NCBI RefSeq assembly: GCF_964204645.1 | Contig: NC_134027.1 | Location: 24,850,485 to 24,914,484 of the forward strand | From: Tubulanus polymorphus | Taxonomy: Eukaryota; Nemertea; Palaeonemertea; Tubulaniformes; Tubulanidae | DNA length: 64,000 nucleotides | Reading direction: 5' to 3' | Shown: in pieces, positions 37,253 through 61,498 of the stretch | How the letters are laid out: the number at the start of each line of letters is the position of its first letter | Position numbering within the stretch: position 1 is the first letter of the stretch | Position numbers and translations under genes: made by a program | The notes under the pieces: generated by a model | What the model was told of the DNA's origin: nothing | What the model saw: only the letters and a program-made list of their open reading frames with translations | Database searches by the model: none

Positions 37253-40200
37253 ATGGCGATGAATAAAAGGAGTCGGGTAAGCCCATTGTTAATTATCATT
37301 CGTAAGCTGTTGACCCGGTCAAGCTAATACAGACCTACCCGCGGCCGGTCCATGTCAGGGATAATACTTAAGACCAGTCTCACTTGGGGCCAGTTCCATA
37401 ATTGAGACCTAAGTCTAAAAGTGGTCTTAAAAACCTTAAGGTTGGCCTTAAGCTGTTAGATTAGCTATATATGAAACTAAGATGATCTTAAGTCTAAGAG
37501 CCACGACTGTGGAACCGGCTGTTTTATGAAAACACTAAAAACTCTACATAACGGTTTCAGCAGTTCTGAGCTATATCATTATGAATGTTAGTTCAGGGGC
37601 TGGTGCGACTTGGAAAAACCAAGATCCAAACGACGAACAAGCGAAAAAAATACGAACAAAAACAAGAGAAAAACCAAAACTTCGAAATCGATTAAGGTCA
37701 AACGCTTTCAGTGACTGAACCCAGGGCGTCGTTTATCTAAACCAACCGTAATTCCGAACGAAATTTTGATACATTACACAATACCGTACTTTCAAGCAGT
37801 TCAATGTCTGTCGGTATAGTCTAATTCACCCGCCGAGATAACCTAAGGAAAAACAATTTTGACATTTTGAATAATTGGCCTCATTTACTTTCTGATAAAG
37901 AAACTGTTGGTCAAATTAGAGCCAATGGACATCTGTGTCGAGCTATATAAACCAGTTTAAGAAGTTCTGCAAAATTAAGTTGTTTTCACGATTTTGCTGG
38001 TTTTGTTGTTCATCCAGGTTATTGGTATTTCGGTAGTGTTGATATCGGTCTTATTCTATCTAGCTGATCACACTGTTATCGGTGCGTATTAAACCATGTA
38101 AACTGGAATTAACTATATATATATACTAGATTTGACATTTGTCTTCATAGTTCGATATTTTTCGACCTTGTAAGTAAGGCCCTCGAGTTAACTGTACCCA
38201 TTCTACCGTGCGCGCGATCCAGATTCATGGATTCAGAAATGTCTTCATTTTTCTTGAAAAAAAAATGGTTTTCACGTGTTCGTTCATTTGCTCTGATCAT
38301 CGCACCGAAACAGCGCATAGAGTCACGAAACAAACATAGGACCTTTTTAAAACCCCTATAGCGGGTGCACCCAGCATTAACATTGCAACAATGGTACAAT
38401 TTAATTCCTTTCTGAGTACATTATTGTGCGGCTTTATTCATTCATTGTTTTTTGTTCTTGTTTTGTGTGCGTGTGTTTAGGGCAGATATGTATCACAGAG
38501 AATACGACATTGACAATGGTAGTAAGACCGGAAGTTCTAAAACTAGGAGGTACCGCAGTTATACAATGCCAGGTTTTACCGCCACCTAAAACAGGTCGCT
38601 GCATATTTAACATGCACTTGTTAAGCCCTTCGGTACTAAGATTTTTTCCTAGAAGTATATGTCATTCATTTGGTGACGAAGAACCTCGGTACGTTGAACG
38701 ATGTGACGTCACAGCCGGCCGTTATGGTATACGTATCACTAACGTAGAAATGGCTGATGCTGGAAGATGGGGTTGTCATTTCAGGTACTACATGTCCTAC
38801 CACAATAGTGTACATGTAGATGTAGTGGGTAAGAATACTTAAAACGAATTTCACAATATCCAAAATATATGGAATAATCAAAATCATAAGAAACAATCAT
38901 AAGAAATACTAGAAATCTAATATGATATCAATTAAATATTTCGGGCACTATCGCCGTACTTTTGGATTTAAATAGGAGCAATTTAACATTTTCACCTCTC
39001 ATGATTGCGTCTTTTTGATTACATTGATATTCGATATTTAGAGGTGTCATTAGTTTACATATTAAGATTCTCGCCGATTGTTTGAAGACGCAAATGTTAT
39101 TTTAAGCGCCCCCGAGTGGACCAGTGCTAACGTCTGAACCAACCACCGCCATCGGTAACATCGTCACATTGCAGGAGAATTCATCATTAACGATCACATG
39201 TAACGGTTCACAGTATGAAGCTACAGGACTGATGTATAAATGGAATGGTGTCAATCTATCAGGAGAGTCTAATAATACACTCAACTTCACAAGAATTAGT
39301 AAAACTGATTCAGGTGTTTATACATGTAACGTATCGAATATAGTAGATACAGTTACTGGTAGTGTTACTGTCAATGTTCTATGTAAGTATAAGTTCCATA
39401 GAAAATACATCTCCCTTATCCATATTTGTTGCATACATAATTAAAATGAACAATATTGATCATTGCTTACGTTAGGTTATCGCTTATTCATCATTCATTT
39501 TTAAACTTTTAAAGTTGATTGCGTTATAATTTAAAGTCGAAAGGAGTAAGATGGAATCTTTTCGCTACACGTGTATACATTCAATGTTTTTGCAATAGAT
39601 GCGCCGGTGTTGTCCGAACGAGTCGAACCCGTTGTTGCGCAGATCGGGGAAACTGCCGAATTCACGGTGAAGTTCGACGTGAATCCGCCGATTGGAACGA
39701 CTCTCTGCTGCGTTAAGAACGCGACGACGAACGAATCGGTGATAACCTCGAACGAATTGAAAACGATCCCGGTTAGCAAAACTCAATGGGATGTTGTCGT
39801 ACAGTCGGTGCAAGCGTCTGATTTCGGAACGTATTTGTGTGAACTCAAGAATGCAATCGGTAGTGTCGAGGTTACTCTGCATCTTACAAAGTCTGGTGGT
39901 AAGTATAGGGCACAAAATTTATTCTCCGAGAAAGCGATTACATTGAGCTCCACATCGACGTACAACTTTCCACAGCATCCCGTCGAGCGCCATACCTCTT
40001 TAAGATCCAACTTGAGTATTTCGTTCTGAACGGTTTTCTTTTTTAAATTTCACGAAAATTTGAATTGTTCGTATACCAGGAAGTGGACGGTGTATATACT
40101 ATCCACAGTACCGTCCACTTCTGGCTCCAGTATCCACGAAAAAAGTAGAAAAGACCGGGAGAAAAAAAAACGACTAAACCTTTTAGTTAAACTTGTTCAC

Positions 40201-42186
40201 GTTTCATTAAAAGAAAATGAACTCTTAACACTGATCTAACACTGGGGACGGTTTCACAAAATAATGTTTAACTCTAAATCGATTTAAAACTTTCTTAATC
40301 AGTTCGGTTTATATCAATCAGTACACTTTGTTACGACTATATTAGGATATAATCGAAACGTTGAATAAGCTACTAGCTTCAGTTACATTTTCGGACTGTT
40401 TTTTCGTTATTATTGTGGGATTCTCTCTACATCGCTTCAACGCGGATATAGTGTTTTATCAATCGTGAAATAAGAGAATAGCTTTATCTTTTTAGAAAAT
40501 GTATACATTATATTAAGTTAGAGCGTTACTCAGGTTATCACGTCTACTCATAGCATTAAGCATTCATATTTTTGGTTTCCATCTACAGATGCCAATTGCG
40601 GGCTGTTGACGTGCGTGGCACTGGGAGCTATCGTTGCCTCATTGGTCGTCACCATCATCATTCTCGTTGTTTTCGTGATTCTATTTGTGAAAAGACGCAA
40701 AAACAACTCGAAAAGGTTAGACACAAATTCTATCTCGATAATACTTCAAAAATAGTACACTCTTTTTACTCGGCTCTTTACGCTCAACGATATTCGCTTT
40801 TTTTCCAGTTCTGCTGCCACTAAGAAAAAAAGGAGAAATAAGGCGGCGAAGATAGGTATATTTCTATTTCTAGCCCCTATACTCACTCAAAATCTAGTTT
40901 CGAATCGGAATAGGACACTTATCAACATACAAATTCTAATTCAGGGGCTACACGCTAAGCCAGGTTCCCGGTTAGATTTCAATTGAGGGTTGAAATTCAT
41001 TCATTGTCGACATTTGAATTTAATTTCAAACGAGAAGTTTATATCTGATTCAGATCTATTGAAGAAAATACCAATAAAGGCCTTCGAGGGGGGGGGGTAC
41101 AAATCGTTAGATAGTATCTATATCTATCCGGGGATATGTCATAAGATTAATATTGTACTCGGGAGAGAACGCAAAGGCCTCGTAGACAAACAGAAAACAC
41201 GTTCCCAAATGTTTGGATACTTTCTCAGTTTGTATCAAAAATATTGCCAATTTCTGGTCCTTAAGTCCTGAAAAATGATAGATTTACAGCGTAAAATCGT
41301 ACAAACGTGTCAATTATACTTCTAAACACTTTATTTGCGGGCCAGGTAATGAATCGAGCGTGGGCCATAGAGCGCTATATCCACCTGTGATCTCGACTTT
41401 CAATTATAACTACGTAAGCTATTCGTGAACAAAATGCGGCCGGCGCACAATAGAAACTTCGCGCTATGTATTCTTTCATTACCGCCGACAGAGAGGACCG
41501 ATATTTCGCAAATTGGATTCGGGAGGTTTAAACCTCCCTAAGTCAAATCACTAAAATTGTGACCTTCGTGGAGATTATCTAAAAAACCTCCCAAGGTCAA
41601 ATCACTAAAATTGTGACCTTCGTGGAGATTACCTAAAAAGCCGATCGTAATCAATTTTAGCAGAACTTTTCACCCAAACGTTCAATGGTTTCAAAATCTT
41701 TCAATCAAAACATTTGAGAACGCGTTAGAAGCAAAATTATGAAAATATACTTCAAATATTACCAGTCAGTTTCGTGAACTACGTCGAATCTCGGCAAGCA
41801 GGGTTAGTTCACTTTATACTTCCATTACAAATGCAGCATATTCTTTTTCGCCGCATCTTATTGTCTTTGTTTCAGCTAAAAAAGAAGCTGACACAGATGA
41901 CGTATACGAAGTGTACACGCACAGGCCTACGAGACAACGTGCGGTGAACACGAGCGAAAATATTTACGGAAATCGCGAGGTGTGTGAATTGTTTTTTTGC
42001 TGAAATTATTCAGCTGCATATTTCTAGTCATTTCAATTCTGTTCGATCAAAAATACATGTATTTCTGTCCAATTGATTTTCCTGTTCACGGTCTAGATAC
42101 TTTTATTTATTATTTTACAGATGGTCAACGTCGCCAGAAACGCGTCCGCGTTCAGAGACCTTGGCGAGGAATATGAGGAAATCTAG
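37253..42186 (+). CDS. Ig-domain receptor A: three Ig domains, TM helix, YEEI tail
   Basis: Nine exons join in phase: 37253-37276, 38018-38081, 38481-38828, 39107-39382, 39599-39898, 40589-40715, 40809-40855, 41876-41979 and 42121-42186. They give 451 residues. Exons 1 and 2 form a leader (MAMNKRSR, then VIGISVVLISVLFYLA). Exon 3 is a V-like Ig domain with six cysteines and D-A-G-R-W-G-C. Exon 4 is an I-set-like domain (L-T-I-T-C to D-S-G-V-Y-T-C). Exon 5 is a third Ig domain whose B-strand Cys is replaced by Phe (A-E-F-T-V-K-F) but which keeps G-T-Y-L-C-E. Exon 6 gives one helix (about 343-370) and a basic stop-transfer. The tail of about 80 residues has D-V-Y-E-V-Y, I-Y-G-N-R-E (Tyr426) and ends in E-E-Y-E-E-I. 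All Ig exons are phase 1-1. AATAAA lies at 42437. A type I surface receptor or adhesion protein; the ligand is unknown and no named family is recognised. Confidence 0.88.
41520..41640. repeat. Tandem duplication of ~59 bp in gene A intron
   Basis: TCAAATCACTAAAATTGTGACCTTCGTGGAGATT followed by TCTAAAAAACCTCCC occurs twice in a row with only a few changes, in the intron before exon 8 of gene A. Confidence 0.9.
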
Positions 42187-44519
42187 CAGAAACTCGGTCA
42201 AGAAGTCATCGCATTACTGAGGGTCGTCTCTATTTTCGAGTCTCAATTCTTCAAATCTATTTACTAAGTTTACGCCGGTGGTTCATAGCCTACCCGAGAC
42301 TAATGAAAATGAATTCAAACATTTTGTTCTATTCTAACCGATCAATTTAGGTTAAAATTCTACTTGTATTGCTTTTTAACCTAGAAGATTTATAACCCCC
42401 TAACGTTGTGTCTTTCAATTCTATATTTTTGAATTCAATAAACTATCAATTTTCTATACTTTTATACGGTGAATAGTAGGTTTTTATTGTATCGTTCCCT
42501 CTCCACGTTTGAGTGTGGCTATTCTACCACGATACGAAAATGCGAGTAGTTGATAATAGGATAATTTTAAACTTTGAATTTGCCCATTTTGTTAAATTGT
42601 TGATTTTTGTATAAACTGAAGACGTCAATATACACGACTGAATGCATGTACGTACACATTGTTGTTCTGATTATTTAGTTTTTCAAATGTTTTTTTCTCT
42701 AATGACAACGACTCGAAAACCAATAATATCGGATTGAACAGCACAATCGATGATACGTCGCGCGACCAACACAGACAATGAGAACTGTGGCAGTCGAGGA
42801 TTCCGCTTATGGCAAGCGAGGATCCACCAGATTCAGCCGCTGGATACGACGCTCGGATTTCTCCAAATTCTATCATTAATTCCTCAAATTCTGTGAATGG
42901 TAGTTGAAAACCGCCCCATACAAAGCCGTAGCATCAATTTGAGGCTATCAAGAGACGTGATAAACCCAAGCTCAGGTGTAGAAGGCTAAAGATTAGACCG
43001 TAAGACCAACATTTTGACAGGATTGTCTACTGATGTATGCGCCATCTAGCGGAATAGACGGTGACGCGTCAAGGTCCTCATTGACTACATGTACGAAGGT
43101 ATATTGCGGGATACCTAGTTTCGCCTTCAATCTTCTTGGGTTTTACAGCGAAGCGAATCCTATCCTGAAAAAAATCTACTTCGAGAGAACTAAATCCGGA
43201 TATCCAATAGATGGAAAAGATAGGAAAAAAACGTATCTATTCGAAACAAAAAATGTGTATGCCTTAAATTTTGGAAGCCTAATTCTTCTTCTGACGGTGG
43301 GGATTCCGCAGGAAAGAATGGGATTTCTAAATCTTCTCATCGAATTGGTTTCCATTCGTTGACAACCGATGAGAACCACTAAGAGAAACATTGACCAAGA
43401 AAACATGTCGCCACGAAGATCTGAACACATTTTTCCTCTTATGGGTCAATACAAGAAACGGTTAGTACTTTATACGTTAACTATTTTATTTGACGCACGA
43501 GCTTTCGCTACTAGTGAATAGTGTAGCTTCATCAGGTGAATCAATATTGACGTAAAGCCTAGCCTACATCGACACTGCGATTGGAGAAAACTAGTTGCCG
43601 GGCAGTTTTCGGCGATTGAGAGCAACTGGCTGGATGCAATCAGTTGCTCGAACGTGTCGATGTGAGCTAGCTTACGACTGGTTAGCGTCCATCTATCTCC
43701 AGTTCCAGCCAGTTGCCCATGTTCTACTTTTGAGCAACTAGTTGTACTCGGTTACTGTCATATCCGTCAAAAAAAGTCAAAAAGGAAAAAATGTTGACTA
43801 CCGCATTAGCGGCAAGTGCGGTAGGCTAAATCCGCCACTGATAATAGATTCACCTGATGAAGCTACTTTAAACTAGTAGCGAAAGCTCGTGCGTCTTATA
43901 AAATAGTTAACCTATAAAGTACTATTCACCTTGTTGTATTTATTCTGCAGCCGGCTCCTCCGTGAATCTTAATTATTGCTGGGTCCTCCTGGATAAATAT
44001 AATCAGATATAGGCTAAATCTTTGAACCCCGGAATATGTTTTTTTTTCAGATTCCGCGGTATATTAAGCGTCGTCTCCTAATGAGAAATTCCATATTTCC
44101 CTCTTAGAAAAGGAAAGACAGAAAAGTTCAGTCGACCTACCTAAGAAATCTGGTCATTGGAATGATGAAACTCTTTATTGTAACACGGGACTATAGTCGA
44201 TCATAATACACATGTTATTATGATTCAATTATAATATGATGCATTATTACTCTGAGTGTTTAAAAGAACTCATACAAAACCCTGTTAATTTTTCTATCGT
44301 GATGTAATTTTGAAATGCACAAAAAAAACTAATTGATTCATTCAGGTATGTTTCACCAGGATGTTCAATTGTCGTAATAAATGAATTGAAATGGTTGTTT
44401 ATAGGGTTGGGGTTATAACCCACTCATCAATAGAACTGTTGAACAGATGCACGCAGTGGTCTAGTGTGTATCTGTATCGAGGCAGCGTCAAAATGTAAAT
44501 CTATCGAGGAATCGGCAAA
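42187..44519. other. Spacer between Ig genes A and B
   Basis: 42590-42920 is homologous to the start of the 7.2-kb unit (compare 47275-47630), including TGGCAGTCGAGGATTCCGCT and GCAAGCGAGGATCCACC, so the shared 3' flank predates the C/D duplication. 43033-43430 is open on both strands without domain signatures. 43466-43925 is a fold-back element. Confidence 0.55.
43466..43925. mobile_element. Fold-back element with ~75-bp inverted ends
   Basis: The left arm, TTAACTATTTTATTTGACGC and on to AGCTTCATCAGGTGAATC (43475-43545), is inverted at 43848-43922 (GATTCACCTGATGAAGCTAC ... AAAATAGTTAACC). The interior of about 300 bp includes repeated CAACTAGTTGC / GCAACTGGCTGG motifs and no transposase frame. 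It is non-autonomous. Confidence 0.8.
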
Positions 44520-47074
44520 ATGACAATAAACAAAAGGAGTCGGGTAAGCGAAACATGAATATCAAGTATGAATGTCGGTTGCTGTAGTAAGCCATGACTA
44601 CGTATGAAACCGGACGAATGATTTACATTGAAATAAGAGTATGTATTTAAAAAGAGAAATATAAGAAAACTGAGGCGAATTTATCGTGTCATATCAGATT
44701 TGATTTTCCTAATCATAATTTGCTAGTCACGTGTAATCTAATCAAATAAGATTTGCACAACAGCATGAATTTGACGCCTTGTTCCAAACAACAGCTGACA
44801 AGAAAATACTGTCGCACTTTTTAAAATATTATTTCCTATCAATGAGTTTCAGGTGTCTCTTTCAGTTTTGACATTTATATCAGTTTTTCGAAAAAAAAAA
44901 TCGTGAGTCTAACATTTTCAAATCGTATCAAATCACCTCCGGGGGTGATTAGATGATTTGACAAATCGATTTGAATTTGATGCCGTGTTAAATTCAAAAA
45001 TTAGACCAAATCAAATTTGATTTGGCGTGATAAATTCGCCTCTAATTTGAAAGTCTTTTTGACGGAAGTTTATTCCTTCGATTCATTATTTTGCCTTAGT
45101 TTCTAATAAAGAAACGGTTGTTCTCGAATTTAGTGTTCATTTGAAGCTTTATTTTCAAACCAGTTCAATGAACAGTTATAAAACTAGCTGTTGTTTTTGT
45201 TTATCCAGGTTATTGGTATTTCGGTAGTGTTGATATCGGTCATATTCTATTTAGCTGATCACACTGTTATCGGTGCGTATTAAACCATGAAAACTGGAAT
45301 TAACGATACAAGATTTGTTGTATGTTCATTACCTATCAGTGAGCTACTCAGAAATGTCCATGTTCATTCCATCTAGTAATTACGGTTTTTTAATCATCTC
45401 ACTGATTTGTAAACGTAAGGCCTTTGTGATCTAGTTTTAAAAACTGCTCTCGCGGTCATTTTTCGTCTCACTGTAGTTCGTATTCACTCAGAGTAGTTAT
45501 GATCATGCTAGTCTTTGCCCGTGGTTCCGACGAAAAGAACACGTCGATTAAGTTTAAATCAACTACCAATATATAGCTGTCTATTCTGTCTTGTTTAGGA
45601 CAGCAGAAGAACTGTATAAACGCAGCAGATACGACAATCAAGACCGTAACACCGGCAAATGTAAAAGTTGGTGGCATCGCTGTCGTACAATGTCAGGTTT
45701 CGCCTCCCAGTAAGGACTTCTGCGGTCACAGAATAGACATGTATCGCCCTTATCCGGGACGGTTTGCGTTTGATAAAACAAACTGTCCTCGGGGAACTCC
45801 CGCATCCCGGTTCACAGCACAATGTAACGTCACAGCTGGACGTTATGGTATACGTATCACTAATGTACAGATGTATGATGCTGGAAGATGGTCATGTAAC
45901 TATATGAACTCTTTCCCAAATAATGGAACAGTACTTGCTGTAGAAGGTGAGAATGAAAAGCAATTGAATAAAACTAAAATGTTTCCAAAAACGATTGAGT
46001 TGTCCGGGAGAATGTTGCTATTGTTGTCGTTATAATCATGTTTACGACTCTCATGACAGTTCTTCAACATTTATTCATGACTATGCTAATTGTTGCCAGT
46101 TGTTCTGACTAAGCGAAAATCGTGAAATCTAAATTAACAACAAAATATGGGATAATGCATGATTGTTTATTGTGTAATGTTTAGGACAGCAGCAGAACTG
46201 TATAGACGCAGCGGATACGACACTCGCGACAGTTGTAACACCGGCAGTCGTAAAGCTAGGTGGCACCACTATCGTACAATGTCAAGTTTCACCACTCGGT
46301 AAAAATTTCTGCGGTCACAGAATAGACATGTTTGGTCCATTTCCGGTACGGTTTTGCGTTTGATACGACAAACTGTCCTCGGGGAACTCCCAGGGAATCC
46401 CGGTACACTGGAGAATGTGACGTCGCAGCTGGACGTTATGGTTTACGTATCAATGATGTACAGATGTCTGATGCTGGAACGTGGCGATGTGACTACATGA
46501 ACTCTTTCCGAAATAGCAGTGCAGCAATTACTGTAGAAGGTGAGAATGAAAAGTGGTGTCAATCTATCAGGACAGTCTGATAATTTGCTCAACTTCACAA
46601 GAATCAGTATATATATATATATAATAATATATAATGTTTCATTTACGAATTAAATTACAATATAAAGTAAAAGAAAATTCGTATGTAGAACTAAATTTCG
46701 AATTTTCAAAATATGTGCACAAGGCTAGAACTGTGGCGTTCAAAATGATCACGGAAACATGCTTCATAATCAACGTTAATCACCACTAGTTATTCAAACG
46801 TAATTTAACAACAATTTTTCCACGTATTTCATTCCTCGATTGCAAAAGATGTACCGACGGTGTCCGCGCAAGTCGAATCCGCAGCAGCAAACTTAGGAGA
46901 AACCGCTAAATTCACGATAAACTACGACGCGAATCGATCGGATGGGATAACAATTAGTTATGTTAAGAATGAAACGAACGGAACAACATCCACGTTCAGA
47001 TTGACTGATGTTGCTAGTGAAACTCAATTGAACGCCACTATTCGATCAGTTCAGGCGTCTGACTACGGAACTCT
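44520..47074 (+). pseudogene. Ig-domain receptor B, broken and truncated
   Basis: The leader exons 44520-44543 (M-T-I-N-K-R-S-R) and 45209-45272 and the first V-like exon 45599-45946 are intact and in phase. A second V-like exon, 46185-46539, has one extra T in the run at 46352-46355, so its frame stops at TGA 46361-46363. Downstream the frame resumes with normal Ig sequence (R-I-N-D-V-Q-M-S-D-A-G-T-W-R-C). At 46554-46607 only the middle of the I-set exon survives, fused directly to the intron start of the V exon. The third Ig exon (from 46849) is cut at about 47071, right after the S-D-Y-G-T codons, by the edge of the 7.2-kb repeat unit. No membrane or tail exons remain. A short secreted one-domain product from the first exons is conceivable; otherwise this is a decaying gene. 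Confidence 0.85.
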
Positions 47075-48486
47075 GGTCTTGTCAAATATGTTTTAAAAAA
47101 TAGGTTAACTGATTGTGGCTAATTCGGGGTTCACGAAAGGAATAAAAGAATAACTTAAAAACTTAAAGATTTAGTAGTTCAACTGTATGGAAAGAATACT
47201 CGTACAGAAATACACCTGAAAAACTGACTCGATTTACTTACATAATGAAAGTGCAAATACTTGTTGAGCATTATTAAACTCGGTTTTGTTAAATCGTTGA
47301 TTTTTGTAAACTTATGACGCCAATAAACACGACTGAATGCATGTGAAAATTTCTGTTCTTAATATCTATTTTTTCAAATGTTTTTTTTTTCTCTAATGAC
47401 ACGCAATAACAGCGACTCAAAAACCCATAATTAACCGGATTGAACATCACAATCGATGATACGTCGACCAACGCAGACAATGAGGCCTGTGGCAGTCGAG
47501 GATTCCGCTTGTGGCAAGCGAGGATCCACCGGATTCAGCAGTAGTCTACTTTCAGAAACGACGCTCGAATTTCTCCAAAATCTATCTTTATCTTCTCAAC
47601 TTATACGAATGGTAGATAAAAGCCGCACTATATATATGAAAAATGAAACATCAATCTTAGTTGACAGTAGCGGAGCTGTCCGGATCACCAGATGCCAAAA
47701 AGAAAAGAACGATAAACTCCGGTATCAAATCAAGCATATCCTTTATTCCACGGTTATCAACAAATAAATTCCAGCAATATTCGTTCACAAAATATATCGC
47801 GCGCACACTGAGAGTTCGGCAGGAATATAAACTACGGGCAAACGAATAAAGATGAAATATGCGGGAAGAGAAAAGAACCTGAAATATAAGTAAAAATGTA
47901 AGATTAGTGTACCGCTGGTAAAACCGGTAGGGGCAATGTTCCAGAAACGCCAGAATTAATGTAATTGACTGACACCACCGTAAAATACAAATAATCAATA
48001 ATAATTAATATCCCCTTAATCAAAGTAAACCCACCATAGCGAAATTGATATAAAAGTTAAAAAAAGCGATGGGAAGAGACTCGGTTCCCACGCGTCTGCT
48101 TCTAGATAGTTCTCATAACGATGTGCCGAATAAGACAACTCATCCCGGAAGGGATATTTTCTCAATTGCTAGGACCCCCACACCTCCACGAGTCTTACCA
48201 CGAACCTGCGATCCTAGTCACGTAGGCAAGTTGCACCGGTAAACCAGGATGGGCAGCAATCAGGACATTGGGGTACGATAACCACACTCAAACGTGGTGA
48301 ACTTTTATCTTTTTAATCTGGACATTGTTTGTTTTAACCATTGTATATATCAGGAAGATTTGCTATGACTGCAATGGGTATCCCCTGGATGTGATAACTG
48401 AATATATTGACGCCACAAGTACAAGTTCTGAATGAGGTTTTATAAACTGTATCGATGCAGGGTCAAAATATAAATCTACCGAAGAA

Positions 48487-51400
48487 ATGGCAATAAACAA
48501 AAGGAGTCGGGTAAGAGAAACGTGAAGATCAGGGTCAGGGTGCTCAATTTACAACAAATGAGACTATATTCAAAAATAGAAAACCAACTTGACAGTTTAG
48601 TGATAGAAGTTCATTTTTTCGATCAAGTAATTTTTTGGCCTTAGTTTCTAATAAAGAAACGGTTGTTCGAATTTTAGAGTGATCAAGCTTTATTTTCAAA
48701 CCAGTTCAATGAACAGCAATAAAACTAGGTGTTGTTTTTGTTTATCCAGGTTATTGGTATTTCGGTAGTGTTGATATCGGTCATATTCTATTTAGCTGAT
48801 CACACTGTTATCGGTGCGTATTAAATCATGTAAACTGGAATTAAAAAAACAAGATTTGTTGTATGTTCATTACTCTTCATCAACAATGAGCTACTCAAAA
48901 ATGTCCATGTTCAATCCACCTAGTAAACGCGGTTTTCGATCATCTCAATGATTTGTTAACGTAAGGCCTTTGTGATCTGGGATAAAATTGTTCTCATATC
49001 GCGTTCACTTTTCGTCCGTCCAATCGTTCCGTTCGTCTTTCCGTAAACGGAATCCAGTATTTTTCTCGAAATTTCTACCCTAGTCACAGTCATCTACGGC
49101 CCAAAAACTGGCCCTGTTAGAACTAAGATGGCCGACTGGCGGCCATTGTTGCTCGCCGAAATCAGTACTTTTTACACATTTTTGAAGTTTTCAACGGGAA
49201 CTTTGAATTGTTTTAAATTTTCTTGATCTTTGATATATATTTGTATGCCCAAGGGCCCATCAGCATAAGATGAAATTGAATCGATCGTACCCAGGACGGC
49301 TGTGCTGTGACCGTTTTGTGCCCAAAATTTCGTGTTAGGCATGAATTGCGAGACCTGTAGCTTCCTACTGGTTTGCAATTTTTCACCAAATTCATTTCAT
49401 CTTAAATTTCAAAACGATGAGTCAGTTTTATATTGATCATATATCTAATAGCTCTGGCCGGGTGGTGAAATGGGTAGAAAAATAACGAGCCCAAAGAAGA
49501 AAGACTATGTAATAAATGTAACGCAAGACGCCTTGGTGATGAACGACATTTTCTCCTGACATCAGGGGCAGATCCAGGATTCTAGGAAAGAGGGGGCACC
49601 CATCTCAATAATATCCTCACCTGCGGAAGCGCGAAGCGCGCTCGGCTCCGTTACAAGCGCAGGAACGAACAGGGAGGGCCAAATTCGGTTTTCGTACCTA
49701 GTCGACTAGTGGTCGGAACTAATAACCGAATGCGCTTGATTTTCGAACTAGTTCCGGAATATAGTTCTGACTAACTGACATTCGGTTTCGTTTAGTTCGA
49801 CTATAGTCGACTAACTCAGATAACCGAAGGTGGTCGAGAGAGCGCGACGGGGATTCGCCGCAGGTTGGAACTTTTCGAAATTTCTGCTTCTCAGACTCAT
49901 TCTGAGACAATCTGAAGACCCAAAATTCAAATAATATGTCTTAATTTAAACTTGACCGTTGACCGTTTTCTCTTTTAAATCATTCATATAAGTGATAAAC
50001 GCCGGCGCCCCCTCCCCATGGATCTGTCACTGGGAATGCAACTTTCTAACGACCAATAGAAACCAACTGATTCCCTCTATATTTAGGAAAATCCGAACAA
50101 ACTTTTTAGTGTAAAACAGAAAAAGAACACTAATTTGAATTCTGTGCCCGCGTCTAGTGGAAAACCTGTGTAAACCGTGTCCCTAATGCAGCCGTCAATG
50201 AAATGGATTTAACCCCCAGCTCATCCACTCGACGATCTTTCGACCGATTCGATGTCTATTCGATGTGCTGGCAGCATGAAAATATGTGAAAATCGATTTT
50301 CTTGCGAATGCGCAGGAAAGGAATTTTATCTTCTTTCGAATGGACGGTGGTTTCGTATAACTGAAATTCGAAACACAGTCGAATCCCAGACGGAAGAAAA
50401 CTCCTTTTGTGAAACTCCGAATGCGAACACAAAATTATAGCACGTGCATCACAAACGGCCGTGTTCCAGACGTTCGGGCGGGCCATGTTTTAGTGGCTAT
50501 GCTGCAGCCGTGTCTAAGATGATACTCAATGTTTGTACAAATGAATTACTTAAACATTGAATACCGGTATTCAATATGGTAGACTCAGAGTTTACCGGTT
50601 TAAAAAGCGTGTGAAAATCAATGTAGCAAAACATCAATGTAGCGAAAAACATTTCGTTCAAAGGAAAAAAACATTTATTTCTCACCATGACACCCATCCG
50701 GGGCTCCGTATTACGATGAAATGAAATGAATGAAATTTAAATTAACTACAAAATATAGGATAATGCATGTCGTTTATTCTGTTATTTTAATGTTTAGGAC
50801 AGCAGCAGAACTGTATAGACGCAGCAGATACGACAATCACGACAGTTGTAACACCGGCAGTTGTAAAACTAGGTGGCACTACTGTCGTACAATGCCAGGT
50901 ATCACCTCCCAGTAGAAAATTCTGCGGTCTCAGAATAGCATTGAGTAGCCCTTCAGTGCAGTTCGCGTTTGAAAAGACAAACTGTCCTCGTGGAGCTATC
51001 ACAAATCCAAGATACACTGGACAATGTGACGTCAAAGCTGGGCGTTATAGTATGCGAATCACTAATGTACAGATGTCTGATGCTGGAAGATGGTCATGTA
51101 ACTATATGAACTCTTTCCCAAATAGTGGAGGAGTACTTGCTGTAGAAGGTGAGAATGAAAAGCAATTGAGTAAAACTAAAATGTTTCCAAAAACGATTGA
51201 GTTGTCCGGGAGAATGTTGCTATTGTTGTCGTTATAATTATGTTTACGACTCTCATGACAGTTCTTCAACATATATTCATGATTATGCTAATTGTTGCCA
51301 GTGTTGTTCCCATATCTGATCTGAGTCTTTTTTAAATACTGTTTTGTCTACTAAAGAAAATTGTGTTATTTCTTACAGCACTTCCGAGTGGACCGGTTCT

Positions 51401-53799
51401 AACATCTGAACCAACCACCGCCATTAACAACATCGTTACAGTACAGGAGAATTCACCGTTAACAATCACATGTGACGGTTCACAGTCTGGAGCTAAAGGA
51501 CTGACGTATAAATGGAATGGTGTCAATCTATCAGGACAGTCTAATAATAAACTCAGTTTTACAGAAGTCAGGAGAACTGATTTAGGTGTTTATACGTGTA
51601 CAGTGTCGAATACAGCAGGAACAGTTGCTGGTAGTATTATTATCAATGTCCTATGTAAGTAAATTAACATATTGATACAACCTATACAAAAAAAAACTTT
51701 TCGATATGGCTCCGGCATCCAGTTCTTCAGTCGTGGTTTAATTGAAATGATTTTAGATATTTCTGTAACTCTCGATCCGACCTTAGGCAAGACGGATTCA
51801 AACATAAAAGGTATGCCCACTATTTCATCCTTGTGCATTTGACTTAAAGTTGATCAGATTCAGAATTTCGGGTTTCTAGCTAATTTGAGCTTCTTTCACT
51901 TCCATTTATTTTGGCTAATTCTTTTTGAGGTGATTGCTCTGAACCGGCTGCCCTGCCTAGGCGTAGGCTTTATTCAAAGTATAAAGACAGCCTGGACGTT
52001 TGTATGTTCCAGATGAATAGTAATTATCACTTCGCGCATTAGGCATAAGTTACGAAATATCTCAACGCTCGTAGACATAACTTACGAACCAAAAAGTAAT
52101 TGAACGAGCAAATCATCCAGAAATACAATAAATGCATATGTGTTTTTCAAATTTTAAGACCTTAGGTTTTTATATCTATCAATATGTTCAAAACTTCACA
52201 AAACATTTTCAATCAGTGTAAATAGCTTCCTTTTAATTTATGTCAATGTTAAATGAAAGTATAAAGTTCCATCAAAAGTACATCCCTGTTAAGCCTGGTG
52301 CCGCCTGATTTGCCCTAGCACAATTCAAGAAGAAAGCCCTTATGCTGTACGTGCCGCCCGTACGGAACGGGGTCAAAACGTCGCACGGTGGGGGAGGTAT
52401 GTGACAGTAGTATGCGTGTGTATATGGGGGCGGGCGAGGGGTTGCGGCTTTATGTGTTTTACATTCCTTTACCGTAGAACCATATTCAGCGTCTTAATTT
52501 GTTTCCATCGACAGATTCTACTACCATTAATTGGGGACCGTTGACTCGTGGCCCACCGGGAGGTATCGTGGTTTCACTTGTTATCATCACAATTATCGTT
52601 GTTAATGTCGTAATTCTATTTGTGAAAATACGCGAAAAAAATTCGAAAAGGTAGGACACAAAATCTCACCAATATATTTCAGAAAGTTACGTCCTGTATT
52701 ATACCGACCTTTATCCGATATATTTTATTCGGATCTGATAATTTTTCCAGTTCCGCTGCTACAAAGACAAACATTAGAAGCAAGAGTGAGGCAACGACAA
52801 GAGGTATATTTATATTTATATACATAGTTCCCTACTCCGTACCTCCACTCAGAATCTAGTGTCAACTCGGAATATGACACTTATGGATGTACAATTTCTA
52901 AGTGAGTGATAACATGTAAAATCAGGTGCCTGGTTAAATTTGACTTGAGATTAATTCATTTTCACTGTTTCAACTCAGATTGAGTCAGATTTCAACCGAG
53001 AATGAATTTGTATTCAGGTCTATGCAAATAAAAAAGTGGACTTACTTTAGGCCAATGTCATTAGATTTAGTATTTTGAACATGCGATGACAAATCCAAAA
53101 AACAGAATATTCCAAGGATCACCGAAAATAGGATCACCATTTTGCATTTTTAAATATAATCTATTTGATAACGAAATTTTGCAAGATTTCATATATCAAT
53201 ATACTATTAGGTGCATCATCTTAACTTCAAAGTCGAATATATTCTGTTTACTCTTGATTTTCAGCTCGAAAAGATGAAGCCGAAATGTCTACGAGAAAAC
53301 AACGATCTTCCGCTAAAACGAAAGAACCGATTTACGGAAATCGCGAGGTGCGAAATATTCAACTGCATCATTAATTTTATGCAGTTTAACAAATCAGTTA
53401 AAGCAGTTTAACAAATTACAGTTTTCGAGTTCATCGAAATCTGGGGTGGATGCTTACGGCAAAAAGTGTACATCTCTTCTTAGTAACGCCACACTTTTTT
53501 TTCAATCGAATTTTATGCCTACCGGGGATCAAATCTATATAATGAAAAACAGTTAAGCGTCTCAGTAGAGATAACAGATGTTATTGTAACCATATGTCAT
53601 CATTTGGGACTGAGAGCGCCCAGTTCAGAGATAATCGAAGTATCCAAGATGACTTGAAGAATACTGTCCTGCGTCGCCAAATCTACTGATTTTCTTTTTC
53701 ACGATCAATGGACATTTATCTATTATTTTACAGATGGACAACGTCGCCAGAAACGCGTCTGCGTTCAGAGACCTTGGCGAGGAATATGAGGAAATCTAG
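48487..53799 (+). CDS. Ig-domain receptor C: two Ig domains, TM helix, YEEI tail
   Basis: Eight exons join in phase: 48487-48510, 48750-48813, 50798-51148, 51379-51654, 52515-52650, 52751-52803, 53265-53347 and 53734-53799. They give 350 residues. The leader is M-A-I-N-K-R-S-R plus the shared hydrophobic exon. Ig1 is a V-like domain with six cysteines and D-A-G-R-W-S-C. Ig2 is I-set-like (L-T-I-T-C-D-G to L-G-V-Y-T-C). The third Ig exon of gene A is absent: 51655-52514 contains no matching frame. The helix (about 255-276, I-V-V-S-L-V-I-I-T-I-I-V-V) is followed by K-I-R-E-K. The tail of about 70 residues keeps I-Y-G-N-R-E (Tyr325) and terminal E-E-Y-E-E-I but lacks the D-V-Y-E-V-Y of gene A. 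Intron 2 carries repeat elements. Presumed surface receptor with tyrosine-based signalling; partners are unknown. Confidence 0.88.
49560..49870. mobile_element. Repeat insertions in gene C intron 2
   Basis: 49565-49690 begins GGGGCAGATCCAGGATTCTAGG and includes GCGAAGCGCGCTCGGC, a style common to dispersed invertebrate repeats. 49690-49840 is a compact fold-back with CCTAGTCGACTAGTGGTCGG and CGACTATAGTCGACTAA. The same pair sits at 56767-57045 in gene D, so insertion predates the duplication. Confidence 0.6.
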
Positions 53800-55688
53800 C
53801 ACAAACTATTTTTCGAGTCCAAATTTGTATTTGCAAATCAATTTACTATAAGTTTAAAAATCCTTTGGATTATTTGTAAGCACCATGATCATTCCAACTT
53901 TCTCGGCGAATCTGACTGTAAAAAGTCTTCGTTGCGTAGTAATAACGTTTGGCTGTGAGCCTAAAACATGTTCTAGGCAGCATATTATACAGATCGCTGA
54001 TTTCTTTTAGAATCTGCACATTTTTAGCTGCAATAATGATATAATAATGTAGTTCATAACCTATCCAAGACTTAATTTTCAATCGATTCAAGCACCTTTA
54101 TTCTAACCCTAACATCAATCTATTTTAAAAAATTTCACTTGTATTGCTATATAACCTCGAACATTCGTTTAGTATTTTATAAATCATAGTATAGGTGGAA
54201 CTCATTTATAAGTTAGTGCTCTATTCAGTAACAAACATTTCTCGGGGAAGTTTTCATCAGCATCAGGCTCAGAAGGTCTTGTTAAATATGTTTTAAAAAA
54301 TAGGTTAACTGATTGTGGGTTAATCCGGGGTTCACGAAAGGAATAAAAGAATAACTTGAAAACTGAAAGATTTAGTAGTTCAACTGTATGGAAAGAATAC
54401 TCGTACAGAAATACACCTGAAAAACTGACTCGATTTACTTACATAATGAAAGTGCAAATACTTTTTGAGCATTATTAAACTTGGTTTTGTTAAATCGTTG
54501 ATTTTTGTAAACTTATGACGCCAATAAACACGACTGAATGCATGTGAAAATTTCTGTTCTTAATATCTATTTTTTCAAATGTTTTTTTTTTTCTCTAATG
54601 ACACGCAATAACACTGACTCAAAAACCCATAATTAATCGGATTGAACATCACAATCGATGATACGTCGACCGACGCAGACAATGAGGCCTGTGGCAGTCG
54701 AGGATTCCGCTTGTGGCAAGCGAGGATCCACCGGATTCAGCAGTAGTCTACTTTCAGAAACGACGCTCGAATTTCTCTAAAATCTATCTTTATCTTCTCA
54801 ACTTATACGAATGGTAGATAAAAGCCGCACTATATATATGAAAAATGAAACATCAATCTTAGTTGACAGTAGCGGAGCTGTCCGGATCACCAGATGCCAA
54901 ACAGAAAAGAACGATAAACTCCGGTATCAAATCAAGCATATCCTTTATTCCACGGTTATCAACAAATAAATTCCAGCAATATTCGTTCACAAAATATATC
55001 GCGTGCACACTGAGAGTTCGGCAGGAATATAAACTACGGGCAAACGAATAAAGATGAAATATGCGGGAAGAGAAAAGAACCTGAAATATAAGTAAAAATG
55101 TGAGATTAGTGTACCGCTGGTAAAACCGGTAGAGGCAATGTTCCAGAAACGCCAGAATTAATGTAATTGACTGACACCACCGTAAAATACAAATAATCAA
55201 TAATAATTAATATCCCCTTAATCAAAGTAAACCCACCATAGCGAAATTGATATAAAAGTTAAAAAAAGCGATGGGAAGAGACTCGGTTCCCACGCGTCTG
55301 CTTCTAGATAGTTCTCATAACGATGTGCCGAATAAGACAACTCATCCCGGAAGGGATGTTTTCTCAATTGCTAGGACCCCCACACCTCCACGAGTCTTAC
55401 CACGAACCTGCGATCCTAGTCACGTAGGCAAGTTGCACCGGTAAACCAGGATGGGCAGCAATCAGGACATTGGGGTACGATAACCACACTCAAACGTGGT
55501 GAACTTTTATCTTTTTAATCTGGACATTGTTTGTTTTAACCATTGTATATATCAGGAAGATTTGCTATGACTGCAATGGGTATCCCCTGGATGTGATAAC
55601 TGAATATATTGACGCCACAAGTACAAGTTCTGAAAGAGGTTTTATAAACTGTATCGATGCAGGGTCAAAATATAAATCTACCGAAGAA
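53800..55688. other. Spacer between genes C and D, including the unit boundary
   Basis: 3' flank of gene C up to the repeat boundary at 54275, then the upstream part of unit 2. No gene is seen. The short opposite-strand open frame at 53870-54091 lies in 3' flank and recurs in gene D without any domain. Confidence 0.6.
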
Positions 55689-58600
55689 ATGGCAATAAAC
55701 AAAAGGAGTCGGGTAAGAGAAACATGAAGATCAGGGTCAGGCTGCTCAATTTACAACAAATGAGACTATATTCAAAAATAGAAAACCAACTTGACAGTTT
55801 AGTGATAGAAGTTCATTTTTTCGATCAAGTAATTTTTTTGCCTCAGTTTCTAATAAAGAAGCTGTTGTTCGAATTTTAGAGTGATCAAGCTTTATTTTCA
55901 AACCAGTTCAATGAACAGTAATAAAACTAGGTGTTGTTTTTGTTGATCCAGGTTATTGGTATTTCGGTAGTGTTGATATCGGTTCTATTCTATTTAGCTG
56001 ATCACACTGTTATCGGTGCGTATTAAATCATGTAAACTGGAATTAAATAAACAAGATTTGTTGTATGTTCATTACTCTTCATCAACAGTGAGCTACTCAA
56101 AAATGTCCATGTTCAATCCATCTAGTAAACGCGGTTTTCGATCATCTCAATGATTTGTTAACGTAAGGCCTTAATGATCTGGGATAAAATTGTTCTCATA
56201 TCGCGTTCACTTTTCGTCCGTCCAATCGTTCCGTTCGTCTTTCCGCAAACGGAATCCAGTATTTTTCTGGAAATTTCTACCCTAGTCACAGTCATCTACG
56301 GCCCAAAAACTGGCCCTGTTAGAACTAAGATGGCCGACTGGTGGCCATTGTTGCTCGCCGAAATCAGCACTTTTTACACACTTTTGAAGTTTTCAACGGG
56401 AACTTTGAATTGTTTTAAATTTTCTTGATCTTTCATATATATTTGTATGCCCAAGGGCCCATCAGCATAAGATGAAATTGAATCGATCGTACCCAGGACG
56501 GCTGTGCTGTGACCGTTTTGTGCCCAAAATTTCGTGTTAGGCATGAATTGCGAGACCTGTAGCTTCCTACTGGTTTGCCATTTTTCACCAAATTCATTTC
56601 ATCTTAAATTTCAAAACGATGAGTCAGTTTTATATTGATCATATATCTAATAGCTCTGGCCGGGTGGAGAAATGGGTAGAAAAATAACGAGCCCAAAGAA
56701 GAAAGACTATGTAATAAATGTAACGCAAGACGCCTTGGTGATGAACGACATTTTCTCCTGACATCAGGGGCAGATCCAGGATTCTAGGAAAGAGGGGGCG
56801 CCCATCTCAATAATATCCTCACCTGCGGAAGCGCGAAGCGCGCTCGGCTCCGTTACAAGCGCAGGAACGAACAGGGAGGGCCAAATTCGGTTTTCGTACC
56901 TAGTCGACTAGTGGTCGGAACTAATAACCGAATGCGCTTGATTTTCGAACTAGTTCCGGAATATAGTTCTGACTAACTGACATTCGGTTTCGTTTAGTTC
57001 GACTATAGTCGACTAATTCAGATAACCGAAGGTGGTCGAGAGAGCGCGACGGGGATTCGCCGCAGGTTGGAACTTTTCGAAATTTCTGCTTCTCAGACTC
57101 ATTCTGAGACAATCTGAAGACCCAAAATTCAAATAATATGTCTTAATTTAAACTTGACCGTTGACCGTTTTCTCTTTTAAATCATTCATATAAGTGATAA
57201 ACGCCGGCGCCCCCTCCCCATGGATCTGTCACTGGGAATGCAACTTTCTAACGACCAATAGAAACCAACTGATTCCCTCTATATTTAGGAAAATCCGAAC
57301 AAACTTTTTAGTGTAAAACAGAAAAAGAACACTAATTTGAATTCTGTGCCCGCGTCTAGTGGAAAACCCGTGTAAGCCGTGTCCCTAATGCAGCCGTCAA
57401 TGAAATGGATTTAACCCCCAGCTCATCCACTCGACGATCTTTCGACCGATTCGATGTCTATTCGATGTGCTGGCAGCATGAAAATATGTGAAAATCGATT
57501 TTCTTGCGAATGCGCAGGAAAGGAATTTTATCTTCTTTCGAATGGACGGTGGTTTCGTATAACTGAAATTCGAAACACAGTCGAATCCCAGACGGAAGAA
57601 AACTCCTTTTGTAAAACTCGAATGCGAACACAAAATTATAGCACGTGCATCACAAACGGCCGTGTTCCAGACGTTCGGGCGGGCCATGTTTTAGTGGCTA
57701 TGCTGCAGCCGTGTCTAAGACGATACTCAATGTTTGTACAAATGAATTACTTAAACATTGAATACCGGTATTCAATATGGTAGACTCAGAGTTTACCGGT
57801 TTAAAAAGCGTGTGAAAATCAATGTAGCAAAACATCAATGTAGCGAAAAACATTTTGTTCAAAGGAAAAAAACATTTATTTCTCACCATGACACCCATCC
57901 GGGGCTCCGTATTACGATGAAATGAAATGAATGAAATTTAAATTAACTACAAAATATAGGATAATGCATGTCGTTTATTCTGTTATTTTAATGTTTAGGA
58001 CAGCAGCAGAACTGTATAGACGCAGCAGATACGACAATCACGACAGTTGTAACACCGGCAGTTGTAAAACTAGGTGGCACTACTGTCGTACAATGCCAGG
58101 TATCACCTCCCAGTAGAAAATTCTGCGGTCTCAGAATAGCATTGAGTAGCCCTTCAGTGCAGTTCGCGTTTGAAAAGACAAACTGTCCTCGTGGAGCTAT
58201 CACAAATCCAAGATACACTGGACAATGTGACGTCAAAGCTGGGCGTTATAGTATGCGAATCACTAATGTACAGATGTCTGATGCTGGAAGATGGTCATGT
58301 AACTATATGAACTCTTTCCCAAATAGTGGAGCAGTACTTGCTGTAGAAGGTGAGAATGAAAAGCAATTGAGTAAAACTAAAATGTTTCCAAAAACGATTG
58401 AGTTGTCCGGGAGAATGTTGCTAATTGTTGTCGTTATAATTATGTTTACGACTCTCATGACAGTTCTTCAACATATATTCATGATTATGCTAATTGTTGC
58501 CAGTGTTGTTCTGACTATGAGATTGATACCGGTTACCCATATCTGATCTGAGTCTTTTTTAAATACTGTTTTGTCTACTAAAGAAAATTGTGTTATTTCT

Positions 58601-61498
58601 AACAGCACTTCCGAGTGGACCGGTTCTAACATCTGAACCAACCACCGCCATTAACAACATCGTTACAGTACAGGAGAATTCACCGTTAACAATCACATGT
58701 AACGGTTCACAGTCTGGAGCTAAAGGACTGACGTATAAATGGAATGGTGTCAATCTATCAGGACAGTCTAATAATAAACTCAGTTTTACAGAAGTCAGGA
58801 GAACTGATTTAGGTGTTTATACGTGTACAGTGTCGAATACAGCAGGAACAGTTGCTGGTAGTATTATTATCAATGTCCTATGTAAGTAAATTAACATATT
58901 GATACAACCTATACAAAAAAAAACTTTTCGATATGGCTCCGGCATCCAGTTCTTCAGTCGTGGTTTAATTGAAATGATTTTAGATATTTCTGTAACTCTC
59001 GATCCGACCTTAGGCAAGACGGATTCAAACATAAAAGGTATGCCCACTATTTCATCCTTGTGCATTTGACTTATAGTTGATCAGATTCAGAATTTCGGGT
59101 TTCTAGCTAATTTGAGCTTCTTTCACTTCCATTTATTTTGGCTAATTCTTTTTGAGGTGATTGCTCTGAACCGGCTGCCCTGCCTAGGCGTAGGCTTTAT
59201 TCAAAGTATAAAGACAGCCTGGACGTTTGTATGTTCCAGATGAATAGTAATTATCACTTCGCGCATTAGGCATAAGTTACGAAATATCTCAACGCTCGTA
59301 GACATAACTTACGAACCAAAAAGTAATTGAACGAGCAAATCATCCAGAAATACAATAAATGCATATGTGTTTTTCAAATTTTAAGACCTTAGGTTTTTAT
59401 ATCTATCAATATGTTCAAAACTTCACAAAACATTTTCAATCAGTGTAAATAGCTTCCTTTTAATTTATGTCAATGTTAAATGAAAGTATAAAGTTCCATC
59501 AAAAGTACATCCCTGTTAAGCCTGGTGCCGCCTGATTTGCCCCAGCACGATTCAAGAAGAAAGCCCTTATGCTGTACGTGCCGCCCGTACGGAACGGGGT
59601 CAGAACGTCGCACGGTGGGGGAGGTATGTGACAGTAGTATGCGTGTGTATATGGGGGCGGGCGAGGGGTTGCGGCTTTATGTGTTTTACATTCCTTTACC
59701 GTAGAACCATATTCAGCGTCTTAATTTGTTTCCATCTACAGATTCTACTACCATTAATTGGGGACCGTTGACTCGTGGCCCACCGGGAGGTATCGTGGTT
59801 TCACTTGTTATCATCACAATTATCGTTGTTAATGTCGTGATTCTATTTGTGAAAATACGCGAAAAAAATTCGAAAAGGTAGGACACAAAATCTCACCAAT
59901 ATATTTCAGAAAGTTACGTCCTGTATTATACCGACCTTTATCCGATATATTTTATTCGGATCTGATAATTTTTCCAGTTCCGCTGCTACAAAGACAAACA
60001 TTAGAAGCAAGAGTAAGACAACGACAAGAGGTATATTTATATTTATATTTATAACTCCCTACCTCCTACCTCCACTCAGAATCTAGTGTCAACTCGGAAT
60101 ATGACACTTATGGATGTACAATTTCTAAGTGAGTGATAACATGTAAAATCAGGTGCCTGGTTAAATTTGACTTGAGATTAATTCATTTTCACTGTTTCAA
60201 CTCAGATTGAGTCAGATTTCAACCGAGAATGAATTTGTATTCAGGTCTATGCAAATAAAAAAGTGGACTTATTTTAGGCCAATGTCATTAGATTTAGTAT
60301 TTTGAACATGCGATGACAAATCCAAAAAACAGAATATTCCAAGGATCACCGAAAATAGGATCACCATTTTGCATTTTTAAATATAATCTATGTGATAACG
60401 AAATTTTGCAAGATTTCATATATCAATATACTATTAGGTGCATCATCTTAACTTCAAAGTCGAATATATTCTGTTTACTCTTGATTTTCAGCTCGAAAAG
60501 ATGAAGCCGAAATGTCTACGAGAAAACAACGATCTTCCGCTAAAACGAAAGAACCGATTTACGGAAATCGTGAGGTGCGAAATATTCAACTGCATCATTA
60601 ATTTTATGCAGTTTAACAAATCAGTTAAAGCAGTTTAAAAAATTTCAGTTTTCGAGTTCATCGAAATCTGGGGTGGATGCTTACGGCAAAAAGTGTACAT
60701 CTCTTCTTAGTAACGCCACACTTATTTTTTCAATCGAATTTTAAGCCTACCGGGGATCAAATCTATATAATGAAAAACAGTTAAGCGTCTCAGTAGAGAT
60801 AAAAGATGTTATTGTAACCATATGTCATCATTTGGGACTGAGAGCGCCCAGTTCAAAGATAATCGAAGTATCCAAGATGACTTGAAGAATACTGTCCTGC
60901 GTCGCCAAATCTATTGATTTTCCATTTCACGACCAAGAGACATCTATTCATTGTTTTACAGATGGACGCTGTCGCCAAAGACGCGTCCGCGTTCAGAGAC
61001 GTCGGCGAGGAATATGAGGAAATCTAGCACAAACTATTTTCGAGTCCAAATTTGTATTTGCAAATCAATTTACTATAAGTTTTAAAAGTCCTTTGGATTA
61101 TTTGTAAGCACCATGATCATTCCAACTTTCTCGGCGAATCTGACTGTTAAAAGTCTTTGTTGAGTAGTAATAACGTTTGGCTGTGAGCCTAAAACATGTT
61201 CTAGGCAGCATATTATACAGATCGCTGATTTCTTTTAGAATCTGCACATTTTTAGCTGCAATAATGATATAATAATATAGTTCATAACCTATCCAAGACT
61301 TTATTTCCAATCGATTCAAGCACCTTTATTCTAACCCTAACATCAATCTATATAAAAAATTTCACTTGTATTGCTATATAACCTCGATTCTATTAACATT
61401 TAATAAATCCTAGTATAGGTGGAACTCATTTATAAGTTAGTGCTCTATTCAGTAACAAACATTTCTCGGGGAAGTTTTCATCAGCATCAGGCGCAGAA
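54275..61498 (+). repeat. 7.2-kb direct tandem repeat, unit 2 (carries gene D)
   Basis: Second copy of the unit described at 47075-54274. It differs by scattered substitutions, a 26-bp insertion near 58510-58536 and a patch of higher divergence near 60915-61027 around the last exon. Confidence 0.95.
55689..61027 (+). CDS. Ig-domain receptor D: two Ig domains, TM helix, YEEI tail
   Basis: Eight exons join in phase: 55689-55712, 55952-56015, 57999-58349, 58606-58881, 59742-59877, 59978-60030, 60492-60574 and 60962-61027. They give 350 residues, the same layout as gene C. Differences visible from C: Gly to Ala near the end of Ig1, C-D-G to C-N-G in Ig2 (creating an N-G-S glycosylation sequon), S-E-A to S-K-T in the juxtamembrane exon, and four changes in the 21-residue final exon. 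The Y-G-N motif and the terminal E-E-Y-E-E-I are kept. Reading past the Ig1 donor at 58349 stays open to 58546 and would encode a hydrophobic segment (M-L-L-I-V-V-V-I-I-M-F), a possible alternative short form absent from gene C. A polyadenylation signal AATAAA is at 61402-61407. Confidence 0.88.

Follow-up and report, generated by a model that had tools for sequence, protein, structure and literature searches.

The tandem array and its gene models

The window analysed here, 64,000 nucleotides long, spans C3:24850485-24914484 in an animal genome of 267.8 Mb and carries a tandem array of immunoglobulin (Ig) receptor genes on the plus strand. Genes A to D lie within the window, and three more intact copies, E, F and G (L045-L047), follow directly downstream at C3:24914819-24935664. 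The gene models were built from genomic DNA by splicing GT-AG bordered exons into open frames. Genes A, C and D each form a single open frame and share one exon order: start, signal, V-set Ig1, Ig2, transmembrane, two cytoplasmic exons and a last exon, here termed END (Table 1). An earlier sequence-only reading had described receptors whose tails end exactly in YEEI and whose ectodomains gain and lose Ig domains, and both observations were confirmed. A, C and D end in E-E-Y-E-E-I-stop, far above chance expectation, in last exons with open frames and AG acceptors, and their ectodomains differ, being Ig1-Ig2-Ig3 in A and Ig1-Ig2 in C and D; Ig3 is also present in E and G. A Pfam scan of gene A returned Ig, I-set and V-set matches. 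FN3 domains were looked for in the array genes and none was found, and the transmembrane segment of this receptor class contains no charged residue.

Table 1. Features of the window, with positions counted from its first nucleotide
Feature	Position	Strand	Content and evidence
Gene A	37253..42186	+	V-set Ig1, Ig2, Ig3, transmembrane segment, tail motifs VYEVY and IYGN, with YEEI at the C-terminus; nine exons, 451 residues; open spliced frame, GT-AG borders, Pfam
Gene A, signal exon (95-97% identity across copies)	38018..38081	+	
Gene A, V-set Ig1 exon	38481..38828	+	
Gene A, Ig2 exon	39107..39382	+	
Gene A, Ig3 exon	39599..39898	+	Absent from C, D and F
Gene A, transmembrane exon	40589..40715	+	
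Gene A, two cytoplasmic exons	40809-40855 and 41876-41979	+	YEVY, IYGNRE
Gene A, END exon	42121..42186	+	GEEYEEI-stop
Gene B	44520..47073	+	Truncated copy
Gene C	48487..53799	+	Ig1, Ig2, transmembrane segment, tail with EPIYGNRE and YEEI; 8 exons, 350 residues
Gene C, END exon	53734..53799	+	GEEYEEI-stop
Gene D	55689..61027	+	Ig1, Ig2, transmembrane segment, tail with EPIYGNRE and YEEI; 8 exons, 350 residues
Gene D, V-set Ig1 exon	57999..58349	+	Query for the genome-wide family search
Gene D, END exon	60962..61027	+	GEEYEEI-stop
TMEM26 gene exon	25030-25878	-	Pfam E 3e-57

Gene B consists of start and signal exons, an Ig1, a second, frame-shifted Ig1 and a partial Ig3 that is 94% like that of gene E; it has neither a transmembrane nor a tail exon. 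Outside END, exons and introns alike show 96-100% identity among genes C, D and F, and the near-identity of the non-coding parts of the 7.2 kb C/D repeat unit (47.1-50.7 kb and 54.3-57.9 kb) marks this duplication as very recent. Gene A is old relative to the other copies, with introns that cannot be aligned to theirs, an Ig1 that is 62-65% identical and a CY2 that is 63-64% identical. The signal exon is nevertheless 95-100% identical across all seven array copies, A included. It was located at 38018-38081, 48750-48813 and 55952-56015, and about 30 bases on its 3' side are likewise common to the copies.

The YEEI terminus within and beyond the array

The END exons encode MVNVARNASAFRDLGEEYEEI in gene A, MDNVARNASAFRDLGEEYEEI in gene C and MDAVAKDASAFRDVGEEYEEI in gene D, each followed by the stop codon. 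The tail of A passes through DDVYEVY and SENIYGNRE before entering MVNVARNASAFRDLGEEYEEI, and in genes C to G the residues EPIYGNRE lead into an END of the form M..VA...SAFRD.GEEYEEI. A degenerate pattern for EEYEEI-stop matched six places in 267.8 Mb, all of them in this one tandem array, three inside the window and three directly downstream, and the reversed-pattern control matched none.

Strict retention of this terminus had been taken to imply a signalling output under selection, a view that the array by itself does not support. The END exon of A is one base from that of G and two bases from that of C, corresponding to 0/13 and 1/13 synonymous differences, whereas in most other exons the proportion of synonymous differences (pS) between A and G is 0.37-0.70, falling to 0.23 in Ig2 and 0.17 in the signal exon. 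The sequence 3' of the stop codon is common to A and G and absent from C-F. This shared flank, together with the lack of synonymous change, indicates that END has been exchanged between copies. The END exons of C and D differ at 8/66 bases although their surroundings are at least 96% identical, again an exon-sized exchange. Since the last exon has been homogenised, the persistence of YEEI in the array copies argues only weakly for selection, and its use as direct evidence of purifying selection was rejected. Nucleotide-level constraint on END was also considered and judged less likely, given the flank shared by A and G. The END differences between array copies are confined to the first 14 codons and leave GEEYEEI-stop untouched, which speaks for constraint on this terminal segment.

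Relatives elsewhere in the genome bear on the same question. The Ig1 exon of gene D, used as a genome query, matched 44 places, some of them fragments; these include C3:22.80-23.21 Mb, C3:24.34, 24.65 and 24.89-24.93 Mb as well as C9:0.21 Mb. The family was sampled by reading selected genes, and it is estimated to comprise about 40 Ig receptor genes, mostly at C3:22.8-23.2 Mb. In the genes read outside the array, ectodomains are longer and comprise Ig1 and Ig2, in most cases two additional Ig domains, then Ig3 with one or two domains of FN3 type. All members of the family have a diversifying V-set Ig1 at the tip, and their tails are of three unrelated kinds: Y, found in the six tandem genes and defined by Y-G-N and a terminal Y-E-E-I; S, found in at least 16 genes, usually with Y-V-N-V and a near-terminal Y-E-[ED]-[IV]; and L, found in eleven.

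The class S tail closes with two short exons, for example DSYAAATPYVNVAFS and EAGNDPNPYEEVKH on C9, the second ending in the stop codon. All 13 S END exons that were read contain YEEV, YEEI, YEDV or YEDI followed by two residues. A degenerate S-end pattern had 13 genome matches, all within family clusters, and its control had 1; three further S genes missed by the pattern (L048, L059, L067) raise the class to its minimum of 16. Among 10 distinct S END exons only the Y and the E of the motif are invariant, and the ratio of nonsynonymous to synonymous differences (pN/pS) is 0.22 in the motif against 0.53 in the remainder, at a pS of 0.48-0.63. An upstream Y-x-N (YVNV, YMNV or YINT) occurs in 10 of the 11 S genes whose preceding exon was read, the tyrosine being lost in the eleventh (L049). 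Class S thus provides support for Y-E-[ED]-[IV] that is independent of the array, and the check for purifying selection on the last exon, uninformative for the array, points to constraint on the motif in these relatives. They have two extra residues after it, unlike the exact C-terminal YEEI of the array.

The resemblance between the Y END (VNVA...YEEI) and the S END (YVNVA...YEEV) is suggestive of homology. Alignment of the two gave no significant match, and their intron phases differ (0 and 1). The signal exon and the transmembrane segment of class Y are closest to those of an L gene at C3:22.80 Mb (72% of nucleotides and 45% of amino acids, respectively), and class Y may derive from an L-type gene with a changed tail.

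Head-to-head partners and proposed signalling

Eleven genes make up class L; each lies on the minus strand and has a long multi-exon tail containing many Y-x-x-[VIL] motifs; on C9 these are DEYATV, DPYSNI, PLYALV, PIYSTV, NPYQTV, NPYQDV, PTYLHI and STYTEL. The sequence S-T-Y-[ST]-E-L-[GD]-R-V-V-E-P lies near the end of the tail in 9/11 L genes (control 0; the other two do not match the pattern), and its core S-T-Y-[ST]-E-L is by consensus an immunoreceptor tyrosine-based inhibitory motif (ITIM). In the 22.8-23.2 Mb cluster, S ends lie on the plus strand, except for two at its right-hand edge, and the ten L ends are all on the minus strand. About seven S/L pairs, including the one on C9, stand head to head, and 3.6-11 kb separate their Ig1 exons; most S and L tails were assigned to an Ig1 exon solely because they are adjacent to it, so that these pairs are putative. 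The C9 pair (L057/L058) was read almost end to end: its members are 98% identical in Ig3 and 98% and 93% identical in the FN3-like domains, and their tails have no recognisable resemblance. Across the family, tail class is scattered on the Ig1 tree, with 8 changes compared with 7.7 in shuffles. In gene order and sequence, the S/L arrangement is that of paired receptors. On C9, the gene with the L-class tail (L058/L060, ~205.6-207.5 kb) also contains a long intronic minisatellite of ~20-base units (gaatgggtgagtaacacactgtatag), each including a splice-donor-like gtgagt.

The Ig1 exon varies more than its surroundings. Between E and G, which are recent duplicates, the introns are mostly 98-99% identical and the Ig1 exon 89% (pS 0.12, pN 0.11), and between recent duplicates this exon differs 6-10 times more than the introns. 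Because synonymous and amino-acid changes rise together, tracts imported from other copies are a likelier source of this variety than point-by-point positive selection. Variety accumulates at the V-set tip of the receptor. The Pfam V-set match covers residues 51-139 of gene E, and an AlphaFold model of the gene D Ig1 has a V-set fold at a predicted local distance difference test score (pLDDT) of 80. A Foldseek search with this model placed CD300lf first (E 7e-5), and comparison with an antibody VH domain gave a VIA Z of 10.7 over 102 residues at 2.7 Å; this predicted likeness is one of fold, not of family membership.

The genome encodes candidate signalling partners for these tails. SH2 exons were found for a Src-family kinase (L074; FRK 4e-36, Lck 5e-30), for CSK (2.5e-29) and for SHP2 (1.5e-36), and a SHIP-like SH2 exon is less decisive (SHIP 1.7e-13, SHP2 3e-13). 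Another SH2 exon (L078), taken by eye for Grb2, was rejected as such since SHP2 matches it better. Phosphorylated YEEI (pYEEI) is the best ligand of the Src SH2 domain, and the SH2 domains of Src-family kinases from unicellular relatives of animals bind it too (PMC7337045, PMC5876402). Changing Y319SDP of ZAP-70 to YEEI causes a gain of function through the Lck SH2 domain (PMC10525366), which shows how strong such a motif can be.

The favoured reading, to which about an even chance is given, is that the genes of the window form the Y class of a paired Ig receptor family whose YEEI branch recruits a Src-family kinase and is opposed by ITIM-bearing partners. In the proposed mechanism, the V-set tip would bind a ligand and the receptors would cluster, whereupon a Src-family kinase would phosphorylate the tail. 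The phosphorylated YE[ED][IV] would then dock the SH2 domain of the kinase, which would be opened and held at the receptor, allowing the signal to spread. Y-x-N could be a second docking site, perhaps for a Grb2-type adaptor, and the ITIM of L partners reading a similar ligand could bring in phosphatases of the SHP2 or SHIP type, which would counteract the signal. A more specific proposal, of a self/non-self complex not described before, is put forward tentatively: one V-set pool would be reshuffled by exon-sized exchange and joined to three outputs (YEEI, Y-x-N with Y-E-[ED]-[IV], and ITIM), the S and ITIM outputs sitting in divergent head-to-head pairs.

Several points weigh against the paired, Src-coupled reading. 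A search for a strict immunoreceptor tyrosine-based activation motif (ITAM) in the Y and S tails found none, and the Y tail holds a single Y-x-x-I. YEEI is homogenised within the array, and the link of most S and L tails to their Ig1 exons depends on adjacency. Sequence is the basis on which the tails are predicted to be phosphorylated, to bind SH2 domains and to give opposing outputs, and on which the receptors are predicted to act in immunity or self-recognition. The idea of a Src-family SH2 ligand gains from relatives that keep Y-E-[ED]-[IV] in a different last exon and from the presence of a Src-family kinase and CSK; selection for YEEI at the exact C-terminus was not upheld. Assignment to a lineage-specific immune or self-recognition group appears plausible given the head-to-head genes, the ITIM partners and the excess change in the Ig1 exon.

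The family could be real and coupled to Src-family kinases yet serve cell adhesion, or neural or epithelial recognition, instead of immunity or self-recognition. Adhesion molecules typically have ectodomains that combine Ig with FN3 domains, and Kirre-like and CAR-like Ig domains are found among the weak sequence matches of Ig1. Against this, ~40 clustered recent duplicates with an excess of change limited to the V-set exon are more like immune or allorecognition clusters, a type to which the ITIM-bearing head-to-head partners likewise point, and an adhesive role is regarded as unlikely. A selected output would be lacking altogether if YEEI had been kept merely through recent copying and conversion of the last exon. 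The near-identity of C, D and F and the A/G END exons with their common 3' flank agree with such a history, which accounts for the array alone: as many as 8 nt separate the END exons of the copies, none of them in GEEYEEI-stop, and class S keeps Y-E-[ED]-[IV] with synonymous sites near saturation. As an account of the motif in general it is improbable.

Two other explanations assign the terminus a different partner. Its exactly C-terminal position matches both a Y-x-x-phi sorting signal, such as occurs at the C-terminus of lysosomal membrane proteins, and a class III PDZ ligand (x-[DE]-x-phi-COOH). The PDZ form is ruled out in the S-class relatives, which keep Y-E-[ED]-[IV] yet end two residues further on. 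Plain sorting signals need no invariant Glu at +1, a residue that is invariant here, and the motif lies ~70 residues from the membrane; a sorting or PDZ function therefore has a low probability. The terminus might also be a hemITAM-like site for a tandem SH2 kinase of the Syk/Shark type, as a single Y-x-x-I after acidic residues would allow and as the hemITAMs in Botryllus FcoR tails might suggest (PMC12065747). The usual hemITAM, however, has three acids and Leu at +3 ([DE][DE][DE]-x-Y-x-x-L), and GEEYEEI has two acids directly before Y and Ile at +3, while the SH2 exons identified in the genome include none from a Syk or Shark gene; little credence is given to this possibility.

Elsewhere in the window, long open frames run through a minisatellite at 12510-13483 (NCGTGSRVKL-type repeats; no Pfam match). 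Open frames at 20246-20784 on the minus strand resemble part of a cytochrome P450 by eye, and the piece scanned there had no Pfam match.

Comparison with known receptor systems

If correct, the proposal of a self/non-self complex would mean that paired receptors arose independently once more, here with the ITAM replaced by a Src-family kinase that docks directly. A family of ~40 genes that combines ITIM tails and head-to-head partners with a branch ending in the optimal Src SH2 ligand would provide another system for asking how often paired logic evolved and whether direct docking can substitute for ITAM, and it yields concrete predictions about a peptide, an SH2 domain and a divergent gene pair. 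A literature search found no family with this combination described among open papers.

Innate immunity in vertebrates is characterised by Ig receptors that form activating and inhibitory pairs. Like SIRP, CD300, Siglec, KIR and NILT, the present family places related ectodomains on ITIM and non-ITIM tails, in tandem clusters and with a V-set tip. Near-identical ectodomains on different tails and an ITIM in one partner class are found in both; the ITAM or charged transmembrane residue of paired receptors is missing here from the Y and S tails and the Y-class transmembrane segment, respectively. The non-ITIM partners carry their own tyrosine motifs, in place of a short, uncharged tail coupled to an ITAM adaptor. 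The relation to the vertebrate receptors is probably one of fold similarity only, with no orthology implied.

The tails and FN3 content seen here presumably differ from those of Hydractinia Alr, which is set apart by description, not by sequence. Alr also consists of clustered invertebrate Ig receptors with ITAM- or ITIM-like tails, and outside vertebrates most descriptions of comparable tails concern allorecognition, in one tunicate and one hydroid (PMC12065747). The tunicate case, the fester co-receptors (FcoR) of the fuhc histocompatibility locus in Botryllus schlosseri, resembles this family in being multigene, with V-type and further Ig domains, a transmembrane segment, tails containing ITIM, hemITAM or core Y-x-x-[ILV], and clustered, paired genes (PMC12065747). 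FcoR has a sushi domain, placed between its V-type and C2-type Ig domains, for which a Pfam scan of genes A and E and the C9 S-gene exons gave no match, and it pairs with a different gene family (fester), whereas the partners here share their ectodomain. The present family in turn includes FN3 domains, and neither its YEEI end nor its Y-V-N-V...Y-E-[ED]-[IV] tail is described for FcoR. The closest parallel to the terminus itself is the pYEEI ligand of the Src SH2 domain (polyomavirus middle T peptide, PDB 1SPS; PMC7337045), which has the same tetrapeptide and upstream acids; here a host Ig receptor has the motif exactly at its C-terminus, where phosphorylation is predicted.

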